Shown here: positions 1 through 34,561 of the stretch, piece by piece
Position numbering within the stretch: the first letter of the stretch is position 1
Layout: each line of letters opens with the position of its first letter
Origin: Deltaproteobacteria bacterium
GTDB lineage: Bacteria > Myxococcota_A > UBA9160 > UBA6930
Direction: 5' to 3'
Length of the DNA stretch: 64,000 nt
Assembly: GCA_016875395.1 (NCBI GenBank)
Contig: VGRF01000014.1
Span: forward strand, 1-64,000
Notes under the pieces: model-generated
Told to the model about the DNA's origin: nothing
The model's input: only the letters and a program-made list of their open reading frames with translations
The model's database searches: none
Program-made: the position numbers and the translations under genes

Positions 1-92
1 CGATCCGGGTGCGGCGACGGGACGCCGCGCCCCCCGCCCTGCGAGCGGGCGCACGCCCGCCTTCCGCAGCCCGCCGCGGCGCTCGCGGCTCC

Positions 93-29899: not shown

Positions 29900-31339
29900 T
29901 CAGACCGCCGCCCGCGGCCCCTCTTCATCGGCCGCGCGCCGCACGCGATGTGCACCCGTGTGCAGCTCGTCGATCGAGCCGATGAGCGAGTGGGGAGTCG
30001 CCTCGACGATCGACAGCTCGGTGAACGTTCCCGGCGCGGGCGCCGCCGCCAGCGGAGCGCGGAAGTTGACGACGCGGTGATGGGGGTCGCGCCCCTGCAG
30101 CGCCGCCGTTCCGGCATCCGCTCCAGCGCGGCGACTCGCGCCTTCGACCAGCACGCGCGTGCGCGTGCCGACGCGGGCGCGATGCGCGGCGAAGGTGAGC
30201 TCGCGCTGCAGCGCCTGCAGCTCCTCGAGGCGCGCCTGCGACTCCTCGGGCGAGACGGTCTCCGCGAGGCTCGCGGACGCGGTGCCGGGGCGCGGCGAGT
30301 ACTTGAACGAGAAGCCGTCGACGAAGCCGACCTCGCGCACCAGGGCGAGGGTGGCCTCGAAGTCGGCGCGCGTCTCGCCGGGATGACCCACGATCACGTC
30401 CGTGGTGATCGCGACGTCGGCGCGCGCGCGCCGCAGGGCGGTCACGATGCGGAGGTACTCGCGCACGCTGTACCGGCGGCGCATCGCATCGAGCATGCGG
30501 TCCGACCCGCTCTGCACCGGGAGATGCACGTGCGGGCACAGCTGCGGCAGCTCCGCGTGCGCGCGAATCAGCGCGTCGTCGAAGAACATCGGGTGCGGGC
30601 TCGTGTAACGCAGCCGCTCGATGCCGGGGATCGCCGCGAGCGCGGCCAGCAGGTCGGCGAAAGCGAGCGTGCCCGAGGCGGCGGTGCGGCCGCGCCGCAC
30701 GTCGTGTCGGCCGTAGGCGTTCACGGTTTGCCCGAGCAGCGTGAGCTCCGGGACTCCGCGCTCCGCGAGCGCGCGCGCCTCCGCGAGGATCGACTCCGCG
30801 GGGCGCGAGATCTCCCGCCCGCGCGTGAGCGGCACCACGCAGTACGAGCAGAAGAGATCGCAGCCCTCCATCACCGTGAGCCAGGCGCGACCCGGCGACT
30901 CCGTGGCGAACTCGGCGTGGCGTTCGGGCAGGTCGAAGCGCGCGAGCGACAGGTCGTCCGCGAAGCGCGCCTCGCGCCGCCCGGCGTACGCGGCGGCCAC
31001 CATCTCCGGGACCCAGCGCAGGTTGTGGGTGCCGAACGCGAAATCGATCTGCGGGTAGCGGCGCAACAGCGAGTCGCCCTCTTGCTGGGCGACGCAGCCC
31101 CCCACCCCGATCAGGCGCCCCGCTCGCTCCTGCTTCCAAAGCCGCAGGATGCCGAGGTCGGTGTAGAGCCGGTGCTCCGCCTTCTCGCGGATCGAGCACG
31201 TGTTCACGACCACGAGATCCGCCTCGTTTTCGGCCGCGGCGCGCTCGAAACCGGCGTGGTGAAGCAGGTTCGCGACCTTCTCCGAGTCGTGGGCGTTCAT
31301 CTGGCAGCCGTAGCTGCGGATGTGGAAGCTGCGCACCAT
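29900..31339 (-). CDS. miaB: tRNA-2-methylthio-N6-dimethylallyladenosine synthase
   Basis: 479 residues. UPF0004 domain with the auxiliary cluster cysteines (SYGCQMNAHDSEK, VVVNTCSIREKAE, GVGGCVAQQEG), then radical-SAM motif MEGCDLFCSYCVVPLTRGRE (CxxxCxxC) and a C-terminal TRAM domain (RTRVLVEGAS ... PAPGTFTELSIVEATPHSLIG). Adds the methylthio group at A37 of tRNAs reading UNN codons. ATG at 31339 chosen because family homology begins there. It is followed after 22 bp by the signalling operon on the same strand. Confidence 0.96.
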   Translation of the reverse strand: MVRSFHIRSYGCQMNAHDSEKVANLLHHAGFERAAAENEADLVVVNTCSIREKAEHRLYTDLGILRLWKQERAGRLIGVGGCVAQQEGDSLLRRYPQIDFAFGTHNLRWVPEMVAAAYAGRREARFADDLSLARFDLPERHAEFATESPGRAWLTVMEGCDLFCSYCVVPLTRGREISRPAESILAEARALAERGVPELTLLGQTVNAYGRHDVRRGRTAASGTLAFADLLAALAAIPGIERLRYTSPHPMFFDDALIRAHAELPQLCPHVHLPVQSGSDRMLDAMRRRYSVREYLRIVTALRRARADVAITTDVIVGHPGETRADFEATLALVREVGFVDGFSFKYSPRPGTASASLAETVSPEESQARLEELQALQRELTFAAHRARVGTRTRVLVEGASRRAGADAGTAALQGRDPHHRVVNFRAPLAAAPAPGTFTELSIVEATPHSLIGSIDELHTGAHRVRRAADEEGPRAAV

Positions 31340-31506: not shown

Positions 31507-31536
31507 TTGACAATCGCGAACGCGGCGGACCATAAT
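31507..31536 (+). promoter_or_regulatory. Strong sigma-70-like promoter, plus strand
   Basis: TTGACA (31507-31512), an 18-bp spacer and CATAAT (31531-31536): five of six at -10 and six of six at -35. It points away from miaB into a region with no gene on the plus strand. Confidence 0.6.
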
Positions 31537-31544
31537 CATTCTCA
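31530..31544. promoter_or_regulatory. Fur-like box overlapping the -10 element
   Basis: CCATAATCATTCTCA matches the 7-1-7 Fur consensus TGATAATnATTATCA at 11 of 14 specified positions. Its AT-richness stands out sharply in this genome. Overlap with the -10 would allow repression by bound Fur. Confidence 0.35.
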
Positions 31545-31687
31545 CCTCGAAACGATTTCTGGAGCGGCGGCGGATAAGACATTTCTCCGACGAAATGTCC
31601 AACCTCTCACCCCCCCATCATCTATCCGCCGCCCTCCGCCCTTCCCGAAGCCCCGCCCGACGCAAGTCCGGCGGGGCTTCAGTTTGT
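31543..31687 (+). ncRNA. Candidate small RNA
   Basis: A transcript of about 145 nt would run from the promoter at 31507-31536 to the terminator-like hairpin at 31647-31680. Inside are a perfect 8-bp hairpin (GACATTTC 31578-31585 / GAAATGTC 31592-31599, 6-nt loop) and then an unpaired C-rich segment around 31603-31620 (CCTCTCACCCCCCC), complementary in character to Shine-Dalgarno sequences, as in many trans-acting bacterial sRNAs. The only plus-strand frame here (ATG 31595) has no ribosome site and implausible composition. With the Fur-like box, an iron-responsive sRNA is a testable hypothesis. Confidence 0.45.
31647..31686 (+). terminator. Rho-independent-like terminator
   Basis: An 11-bp perfect stem, GAAGCCCCGCC (31647-31657) with GGCGGGGCTTC (31670-31680), a 12-nt loop, followed by AGTTTG. 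The U-tract is short. It might also stop leftward transcription coming from the MoxR-VWA operon. Confidence 0.55.
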
Positions 31688-32120: not shown

Positions 32121-33545
32121 CTAGAGGACCAGCCGGTCCACCACCTTCGAGAGCTGCTTCAGGTTCCGACACTCCTCCGCGACGTCCACGTACGGCATGT
32201 ACTTGTCCATCACCGAGTCGCCGAAGCCCCACGCGCTCGGGCTCTCCGGGTTGAGCCACACCACGTCTTTGGCCTTGTTGTACATGTCGCGCAGGCACCA
32301 CGCGCGCGGGTCGTTGTAGTTGTTACGGGCGTCGCCGAGGATCAGCACCGTCGTCTTCTGGTCGATCGCCGAGAGGTAGTTCTGCCAGAAGTAGTGGAAC
32401 GCCGCGCCGAAGTTCGAGCGCGTGTAGACGTTGATCACGTCGCCGCCGTCGAGCGCCTTCTCGATCGCGCCGTTGATGTCCTTCTCCTTGAACACGGGCG
32501 TCACTTCGCCGAGCTCGGAGACGAACACGAAGCTGCGGATTTTGGTGAAGCACTCCTGCAGCGAGTACATGAACTGCAGCATGAAGCGCGACACGTTCGC
32601 GACCGACGACGACACGTCGCACAGGATCACGAGCTTCGGTCGGTCCTTCTTGCGCTGCTTGAAGATCAGCTCGAACGGCACGCCGCCGTGGCCGGCGTTG
32701 CGGCGCAGCATCGTGTGCAGATCGAGCTTGCCGCGCTTGAGGCGCCGCTTGCGGATGGTGAGCACGTTCTTGATGCGCTGCGCGAGCCGCGCGACCACCT
32801 CGCGCATGCGCTTGATCTCGTCTTCCGTGAGGTTGTAGAAGCTCTTCTCGAGCAGGCTCTCGCGCCGGAACTTCTCCATGTAGTCGTAGTTGCGCTGTTG
32901 CAGCTCGCGCTCGGTGAAGTTGCGCACCGACTGGCGCAGCGCTTCCAGGAACTTCTCGATCAGGTCGAGCAGCGCATCGACTTGCGCGTCGGGCATGCCT
33001 CCTTCGCGCAGCTGCTGCGCGAGATCGCGCAGCTGCCTGCCAGCGCCCTCCGCGTCGAGCTGCTCCATCGTTCGGCGCGTGAAGAAGCCGATCTGCAGCA
33101 TGTTCTCGATGCGTTCCGTGCCGGCGCTCTGCGCCGCCTCGCGAATCAGCTGCTCGAGCTGCGAGAGATCCTGGGTAAGGAGCGCCTTCGCGAGCTCGCT
33201 GAGGTCCAGCTTGTCCATCTGGCCCTGCATGTTCTGCATGCCCTGCTTGATGGCTTCCATCAGCTTCTCGAGATCGAAGTCGCCCCCCATCTGCCCTTGC
33301 GCTTGATCGAAGGCGTTGCGCAGGCCGTCGTAGAACGAGGACCAATACAGGTCGAACAGCTGGTCGAAGCCCGCGATGTCTTCGGAGCGCTTCACCATCG
33401 TGGTGCGCAGCGCGTCGCGGAAGATCTCGCGGTCGTCGAACGAGAGCTCGTCGATCGCGGAGAACGAGTCGATCGTCTCGGCGACCGAGACGCGAATCCC
33501 ACTCTTTCGAAGGAGATTCGCGAACTCGATGATTTTCTTCTCCAC
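32121..33545 (-). CDS. VWA-domain protein, CoxE-like
   Basis: 474 residues from a GTG with AGGAG six bases upstream. The N-terminal half is helical (SFSAIDELSFDDREIFRDAL; GQMDKLDLSELAKALLT) and the C-terminal part is a von Willebrand A domain with the metal-site DVSSSVANVS (MIDAS DxSxS) and later VLILGDARNNY. The family (CoxE-like) works with MoxR AAA+ ATPases as a metal-insertion or protein-remodelling chaperone pair. The MoxR gene is directly upstream with an 8-bp gap. The client is unknown: no CO dehydrogenase or dehydrogenase genes are nearby. Confidence 0.88.
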   Translation of the reverse strand: MEKKIIEFANLLRKSGIRVSVAETIDSFSAIDELSFDDREIFRDALRTTMVKRSEDIAGFDQLFDLYWSSFYDGLRNAFDQAQGQMGGDFDLEKLMEAIKQGMQNMQGQMDKLDLSELAKALLTQDLSQLEQLIREAAQSAGTERIENMLQIGFFTRRTMEQLDAEGAGRQLRDLAQQLREGGMPDAQVDALLDLIEKFLEALRQSVRNFTERELQQRNYDYMEKFRRESLLEKSFYNLTEDEIKRMREVVARLAQRIKNVLTIRKRRLKRGKLDLHTMLRRNAGHGGVPFELIFKQRKKDRPKLVILCDVSSSVANVSRFMLQFMYSLQECFTKIRSFVFVSELGEVTPVFKEKDINGAIEKALDGGDVINVYTRSNFGAAFHYFWQNYLSAIDQKTTVLILGDARNNYNDPRAWCLRDMYNKAKDVVWLNPESPSAWGFGDSVMDKYMPYVDVAEECRNLKQLSKVVDRLVL

Positions 33546-33553
33546 GGCTGCTC

Positions 33554-34561
33554 CTAGTGGAGGACACCCTTCTTCGCGGTCGCGGCCTGCGGTTGCGCAG
33601 GAGCCGCCGCGGGCGCTGCGCCGGCCGCCGGCGCCGCCGCGGGCGCCGGCTCCTTGCGCGTGATCAGGCGGCCGAGCTCGCTCTGCGCCTTCTTGATGTC
33701 GGCCTCGTACTTGAGGATCACGTTGAGCGTGTCGCGCACGAGTCCCTCGTCGAGCTGCCCGGCGTTCAGCGCGAGCAGCGCGCGCGCCCAGTCGAGCGTC
33801 TCGGAGATCGACGGCAGCTTCTTCATGTCGAGCTTGCGCAGGCGCTGCATCACGCCCACGAGCTCCTCGGCGAGCCGCACGTCGATGCCCGGCACCTTCG
33901 CCTCGAGGATCTTCGTTTCGAGCGCTTCGTCGGGGAAGTCGATGTAGAGGTGCAGGCAGCGGCGCTTCAACGCATCGCTCATCTCGCGCGCGTCGTTCGA
34001 GGTGAGGAACACGATCGGGATGTGCTTCGAGGCGAGCGTCCCGATCTCGGGCACGGTCACCTGGAAATCCGACAGCACCTCGAGCAGGAACGCTTCGAAC
34101 TCGGGGTCGGACTTGTCGACCTCGTCGATCAGCAGCAGCGAGGGCTCGCTCGCCTGGATCGCGCGCAGCAGCGGGCGCTGCACGATGAAGCGTTCGGAGA
34201 AGAACACGTTGTCCTGCGCGCCCACGCGCTCCGCGGCGTCGCGCAGCGTGGTCGCGCCGCTCATCGCCTCCGCGAACTTCTCCTTGAGAATCTGCGTGTA
34301 GAGCAGCTGCTTCGAGTACTCCCACTCGTACAGCGCCTTCGCCTCGTCGAGGCCTTCATAACACTGGAGGCGAATCATCGGCCGGCCCGTCGCCTTCGCG
34401 ACGACCTTGGCGAGCTCAGTCTTGCCCACGCCCGCCGGGCCTTCAACGAGCACGGGCTTGCCGAGCTTCGTCGCGAGGTAGACCACCGTCGCGATGTTCT
34501 TGCCGCAGACGTAGCCCTGAGCGTTCAACTGAGAGATGACGTCGTCGACCGACGCGAACAT
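33554..34561 (-). CDS. MoxR-family AAA+ ATPase
   Basis: 335 residues. Walker A is EGPAGVGKTELAKV, Walker B SLLLIDEVDKSD, sensor 1 VFLTSNDAREMSDALKRRC (arginine finger included). It contains the MoxR-specific GLDEAKALYEWEYSKQLLY insert. The last ~35 residues are an Ala/Pro-rich disordered tail (EPAPAAAPAAGAAPAAAPA) before KKGVLH. MoxR ATPases remodel or activate partner proteins with the VWA protein encoded immediately downstream. It follows ribBA by 52 bp. Confidence 0.93.
   Translation of the reverse strand: MFASVDDVISQLNAQGYVCGKNIATVVYLATKLGKPVLVEGPAGVGKTELAKVVAKATGRPMIRLQCYEGLDEAKALYEWEYSKQLLYTQILKEKFAEAMSGATTLRDAAERVGAQDNVFFSERFIVQRPLLRAIQASEPSLLLIDEVDKSDPEFEAFLLEVLSDFQVTVPEIGTLASKHIPIVFLTSNDAREMSDALKRRCLHLYIDFPDEALETKILEAKVPGIDVRLAEELVGVMQRLRKLDMKKLPSISETLDWARALLALNAGQLDEGLVRDTLNVILKYEADIKKAQSELGRLITRKEPAPAAAPAAGAAPAAAPAQPQAATAKKGVLH

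Follow-up and report, generated by a model that had tools for sequence, protein, structure and literature searches.

What does the plus strand encode between miaB and a VWA-domain gene on contig VGRF01000014.1, in the 64,000-nucleotide stretch analysed here (the window)? The initial annotation of this intergenic region had proposed an independent RNA of ~145 nt, controlled by Fur and carrying a C-rich unpaired segment able to meet ribosome-binding sites. Judged by its sequence, the region indeed contains an unannotated small-RNA gene (31543–31687, plus strand) that is conserved class-wide. The independent transcript is strongly supported by conservation, covariation, and the conserved promoter and terminator, and the C-rich segment proved specifically complementary to the translation starts of ftsA and ftsZ. 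Its most probable role, in our estimation, is that of a new, class-wide antisense RNA that represses cell division by blocking translation of FtsA and FtsZ without the help of a chaperone.

Structure and conservation of the RNA gene

Transcription is predicted to start ~7 nt past the −10 element of a sigma-70–type promoter, TTGACA-18-CATAAT (31507–31536, plus strand, like all elements of the RNA gene given below), and to end past a Rho-independent terminator, yielding an RNA of ~145 nt (31543–31687). The promoter (11/12) is the sole sigma-70–like match within 7 kb, where shuffled sequences give 0.2. The predicted fold has an energy of −70.1 kcal/mol (z = −8.3), which none of 200 shuffles attained. 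Promoter, 8-bp hairpin, C-rich unpaired stretch, and 11-bp terminator-like stem were all found as initially annotated; overlooked, however, was a 16-bp outer stem, the 5′ strand of which (31560–31576; TGGAG.CGGCGGCGGATA) pairs with 31623–31638 (TATCCGCCGCCCTCCG). Because this stem encloses the inner 8-bp hairpin (GACATTTC/GAAATGTC; 31578–31599), the C-rich single-stranded stretch (31600–31622) becomes a displayed loop, within which positions 31601–31617 (AACCTCTCACCCCCCCA) form the invariant, putative targeting segment. The terminator (31647–31687; TTCAGTTTGT) comprises an 11-bp plus 3-bp GC stem (31647–31680) and a T-rich tail. A coding transcript was rejected because the ATG preceding the stem is not kept in relatives. 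With a promoter and a terminator of its own, and no conserved open reading frame, the locus looks like an independent gene for a trans-acting antisense RNA.

By BLAST, matches were obtained in 51 of 61 relatives, and a covariance model (R1, which matches 31550–31679 in the window) was built from 30 of them. All genomes in the comparison are metagenome-assembled; the class, UBA9160 (Myxococcota; class and order names after GTDB), is known from metagenomes only. Of 91 class genomes, 76 gave one copy each with this model, and a search of 284 sampled genomes of the phylum gave none outside the class. Of the 15 class genomes without a match, 13 have assemblies from which the miaB locus is missing; in one (G055), the RNA is cut by a contig end, and in the other (G021, family f9), a diverged copy is present in the same place. 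No Rfam family, 6C included, matched the RNA at the gathering threshold or at E values up to 10.

The equivalent promoter (TTGAC(A/T/G)-16..18-(C/G)AtA(A/C)T) is located upstream of the stem in 61 of 65 homologous loci, compared with 5.5% of shuffled upstream regions. In an alignment of 65 distinct sequences, 95.7% of the cells assigned to the structure are paired, and 19 pairs are altered on both sides. Covariation was 0.270 versus 0.130, with none of 500 shuffles reaching the observed value in any of five measures, and sliding the pairing partner by one to three columns destroyed the signal. In the outer stem, compensatory changes convert U-A to C-G and G-C to A-U; the inner hairpin is compensated in relatives (GGTTGTTTC/GGAACAACC in L090, GGCATTCC/GGGATGCC in L080), and 12 of the 14 pairs of the terminator stem are altered on both sides. 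The loop shows the opposite of such variability: its core CCUCUCACCCCCC / CCTCTCACCCCCC (of AACCUCUCACCCCCC-A) is exact at 76 of 76 model-found loci. The element AACCTCTCA-CCCCCC-A is likewise at or near 100% in the 65-sequence alignment, the members of which were partly picked by the loop motif (those of the 76-locus comparison were not); the flanking unpaired bases vary. Just outside the outer stem (31550–31560 and 31638–31646 in the window, and the corresponding positions of homologues), many relatives may form a further covarying basal stem (CAGG..CCTG, CGAG..CTCG, or CAAGG..CCTTG), which is invisible in the window sequence itself.

Both flanking genes are encoded on the minus strand, as annotated. 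The gene for the tRNA methylthiotransferase MiaB (29900–31339; Pfam UPF0004 and Radical_SAM) is the divergent neighbor in every genome examined, the RNA being head-to-head with it wherever both flanks are available. The VWA-domain gene (32121–33560; gene end at 32121, start approximate) is convergent with the RNA, and usually so in relatives with a long enough flank. A pattern scan of named genomes returned 66 stretches, nearly all from uncultured “Deltaproteobacteria/Myxococcota” metagenome-assembled genomes (MAGs), and including the isolates UBA9160 and SZUA-336. One MAG labeled “Spirochaeta sp. MED672” (NZGT01000123.1, L105) carries the RNA and belongs to the class; its public label looks wrong. 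The only bacterial match clearly outside the group, from Millionella (L117), was treated as chance because the 5′ stem pattern is missing. A viral origin was dismissed, the pattern being absent from 2.9 million viral contigs.

Complementarity of the loop to the ftsA and ftsZ starts

When the relatives were searched for the complement of the loop, matches recurred at the start of ftsA, at the start of the next gene, and beyond the stop codon of a gene for a ribonucleotide reductase. The proteins encoded at these sites were identified as FtsA, FtsZ, and the vitamin B12–dependent reductase NrdJ; FtsK was found as well. A typical ftsZ start reads GGGGGGTGAGAG-ATG. The comparison then covered the dcw (division and cell wall) regions of 60 class genomes, of a further eight from order f12, and of 12 outsiders. 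The loop duplex with the in-class ftsZ starts had a median energy of −24.5 kcal/mol (n = 61) and that with the ftsA starts one of −20.8 kcal/mol (n = 68), versus −10.6 kcal/mol for 499 other gene starts of the same regions (P = 1e-32 and 1e-27, respectively); the background starts, stemming from a simple gene caller, are approximate. In the 12 outsiders, the corresponding values were about −12.5 (ftsZ) and −13.1 (ftsA) kcal/mol. Perfect complementarity over 8 nt or more was present at 72% of the ftsZ and 46% of the ftsA starts, at 0.8% of the background, and at 4% of the outsider starts. Either ftsZ or ftsA provided the best-scoring start in 29 of 32 dcw regions, and at least one site at −20 kcal/mol or better was found in 55 of 61 in-class genomes versus 2 of 12 outsiders. 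Permuted loops bound ftsZ at −17.9 ± 1.6 kcal/mol, and none of 200 reached the real value of −23.6. For the genome of the window, the predicted duplexes amount to −24.5 (ftsA), −29.5 (ftsZ), and −36.4 (nrdJ 3′ untranslated region [UTR]) kcal/mol. The RNA thus has a conserved unpaired seed complementary to the translation starts of specific mRNAs, as expected of a trans-acting antisense RNA, and, like RNAs of the DicF/DinR type, it is complementary to the ribosome-binding site of ftsZ.

The site past nrdJ is a hairpin with a GGGGGGUG loop; 36 of the 63 loci examined carry it downstream of the stop codon and immediately ahead of the terminator (L189 1017–1075, G000:C1:98616; homologues L193–L195, L309–L315, L321–L343, and L375–L380). 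Its stem covaries, with six of nine pairs altered on both sides (0/500 shuffles), and the hairpin is a candidate sponge, or a 3′-UTR–derived RNA in its own right. The seven C of the RNA in this genome face seven G in its nrdJ hairpin; this match was discounted as covariation because relatives with six-C loops also have seven-G hairpins. In f4, the nrdJ terminator itself bears a (U)UGGGGGGCG-type loop (L320, L368, L370, L371, and L373), which perhaps replaces the separate hairpin.

As an identical 13-mer occurs in the miaB intergenic region and at ftsA, ftsZ, and nrdJ, the shared motif could conceivably be a DNA operator recognized by a transcription factor. We give this hardly any credence: the motif forms part of RNA hairpin loops whose stems are compensated, keeps a fixed spacing from start codons within an operon, and, in the case of nrdJ, follows the stop codon just ahead of the terminator. 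Exact matches to the 13-mer elsewhere were mostly confined to single genomes. The loop might also be a protein-binding or structural element (of the 6S, signal recognition particle, or Csr type), its match to ftsA and ftsZ being a by-product of the use of G-rich Shine–Dalgarno sequences, and 16–17 invariant nucleotides are in fact unusually long for an antisense seed. Such an explanation appears unlikely to us, however, as neighboring gene starts lack such G-tracts, as do ftsA and ftsZ of the outsiders, the complement recurs in the covarying nrdJ hairpin, where no Shine–Dalgarno sequence is needed, and the RNA matches no Rfam family.

In family f9, RNA and targets appear to have changed together. 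The diverged RNA of G021 (L350 2162–2250) has kept the plan of stem and hairpin, and has a C9 loop (CAAUCCCCCCCCCGCG) and an AT-rich terminator; the ftsA site of this genome, GGGGGGAUU, is the exact complement of AAUCCCCCC. With its own ftsA and ftsZ starts, the G021 loop is predicted to pair at −21.6 and −26.6 kcal/mol, versus −15.9 and −21.8 for the canonical loop, whereas in other genomes, the canonical loop pairs better than that of G021. The other f9 genome, G028, yielded no match to the RNA or to its locus; its ftsA and ftsZ ribosome-binding sites are of the ordinary A-rich kind, the G-tract having been lost. As it concerns a single lineage, the co-change is supportive, not decisive.

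Breadth of the regulon and the question of iron

Several observations weigh against a dedicated repressor of ftsA and ftsZ. Permuted loops bind G-tracts fairly well, and one ftsA permutation scored slightly above the real mean; general affinity between C-tracts and G-tracts thus accounts for part, though not all, of the signal. One genome (G069) carries the RNA without an ftsA or ftsZ site (−5.5 and −8.7 kcal/mol), and five others also miss the −20 mark. The energies are those of isolated segments, as loop pairing within a closed stem is beyond RNAcofold; runs of the full RNA with its targets were uninformative because such pairing would be a pseudoknot. The nrdJ hairpin is missing in most of f4, in f9, and in the f12 loci checked. 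Finally, the pattern GGGGGGTGAG-N1..8-ATG has ~185 matches versus 39 for the reversed control (~5-fold), so that the regulon may be much wider.

The excess of G-tract starts is also what would be expected if the RNA were a broad-spectrum C-loop regulator, similar to mycobacterial 6C/B11, which pairs with any ribosome-binding site containing a G-tract, ftsA and ftsZ simply being those best conserved within a large regulon. Further ribosome-binding-site matches precede genes for AMIN-domain, ExbD/TolR, and FabH-like proteins, a site is present in the ftsK leader, and B11 acts in this manner in a chaperone-poor, GC-rich bacterium (PMC10470900). On the other hand, perfect complements of 8 nt or more are rare among the background starts of the dcw regions (0.8%), and recurrent sites concentrate on genes for division and DNA synthesis. 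A broad regulon of this kind is a serious possibility, albeit not the one we favor; repression aimed at FtsA and FtsZ remains the preferred interpretation. Two of the further sites are conserved locally. In f4 genus g35 (L296–L299), a G-tract hairpin (UUCUCCUC-UCCGGGGGGU-GAGGGAA) is found ~240 nt before ftsK, at the predicted 5′ end of its mRNA and opposite ssb; it resembles the nrdJ hairpin. In family f7 (L289, L290, L300, and L301), a G-tract start, GGGGGGTGAGTT(C)CG-ATG, is conserved at the AMIN-domain gene, likely another target.

The initial annotation had placed the RNA under the control of Fur, which would make it a candidate iron-sparing RNA similar to RyhB or PrrF. The dyad it described does overlap the promoter (31525–31543, plus strand; GCGGACCATAATCATTCTC), matches GATAATGATAATCATTATC at 13 of 19 positions, and is the single best plus-strand Fur score in the window; moreover, zapB, a division gene of E. 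coli, is repressed by RyhB in iron-starved cells (PMC11584013), which makes a link between iron and division conceivable. With RyhB and PrrF, the RNA also shares its own promoter and terminator, the dyad being found here in one genome only. Over homologous promoters, however, a Fur box was not conserved, the scores being only 6–12 of 19 (mostly 7–10), although promoter, structure, and loop are kept in the same relatives. In addition, the recurrent complementary sites are not those of classical iron genes, and targets and structure are unlike those of RyhB and PrrF. Iron control is therefore unsupported and not a property of the RNA family; an RyhB-like function seems very improbable, and the dyad, lineage-private and probably incidental, would at best be peculiar to this species.

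Proposed mechanism and relation to known RNAs

In the mechanism we propose, the RNA would be transcribed from its own promoter and end at its terminator, and the rigid outer stem and inner hairpin would display the single-stranded loop 5′-CCAACCUCUCACCCCCCAUCAUC-3′. The loop would pair, without Hfq, to the unusual G-tract Shine–Dalgarno sequence (GGGGGGUGAGAG-AUG) of the ftsZ and ftsA mRNAs and block ribosome binding, resulting in translational repression of FtsA and FtsZ in response to a presumed trigger. Hfq was not found in 41 genomes of the class, while control genomes were positive; nucleation of a rigid C-tract loop on G-tracts without a chaperone would thus be the natural mode of action, as it is for 6C/B11.

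In Actinobacteria, the C-rich loops of 6C/B11 (six to seven C) pair with G-tracts in ribosome-binding sites (PMC10470900; PMC9569102), apparently independently of a chaperone, according to the statement in PMC9569102 that cites gkz149. An independent RNA with a C-rich loop in a GC-rich host is common to both systems, and pairing with G-tract sites is predicted from complementarity in the present case. In contrast, 6C has two C-rich loops, whereas the RNA described here has one, with 16 invariant nucleotides, within an outer stem that also holds a separate hairpin; it resides beside miaB in Myxococcota, has ftsA, ftsZ, and nrdJ as predicted targets, and does not match the 6C family of Rfam.

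The predicted pairing site itself, the Shine–Dalgarno sequence of ftsZ, has precedents. DicF, encoded by the Qin prophage of E. coli, base-pairs with ftsZ mRNA, sequesters the Shine–Dalgarno sequence, and blocks division (PMC5069750; PMC10907235), and DinR of Klebsiella pneumoniae inhibits division by acting on the ribosome-binding site of ftsZ (PMC10907235). Unlike the present RNA, which has its own promoter, DicF stems from the processing of a prophage operon and is confined to some E. coli strains; the present RNA occurs once per genome almost throughout the class and fits ftsA and nrdJ as well. It differs from DinR in its conserved independent promoter and in the apparent lack of Hfq in its hosts. 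To our knowledge, the RNAs known to act on ftsZ (DicF, DinR, and StfZ) are from enterobacteria; those acting in trans comprise one RNA of prophage origin and one by-product of the SOS response. As DicF and DinR occupy the ftsZ site, and as the loop is of the C-rich 6C/B11 kind, translational repression of FtsA and FtsZ is the function we propose.

How the nrdJ hairpin might fit into this scheme is a more tentative matter. The G-rich loop in the 3′ UTR of this class II ribonucleotide reductase gene may titrate the RNA or may be a further target, and titration would link deoxynucleoside triphosphate (dNTP) synthesis to the release of division. A class-wide, Hfq-independent circuit coupling DNA-precursor synthesis to cytokinesis can be envisaged, in which the RNA represses FtsA and FtsZ, and the nrdJ hairpin (with, in one subgroup, the ftsK leader hairpin) acts as a decoy that frees ftsA and ftsZ when reductase mRNA is abundant; attractive as it is, we hold this extended circuit to be rather doubtful.

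Two orders of bacteria that apparently manage without Hfq thus seem to have fixed a gene devoted to this RNA, its loop frozen, and Rfam would gain a new and cleanly delimited family. If the proposed function is correct, these organisms would control division at the level of translation, from the core genome, and would connect dNTP synthesis to cytokinesis directly and in a testable way.
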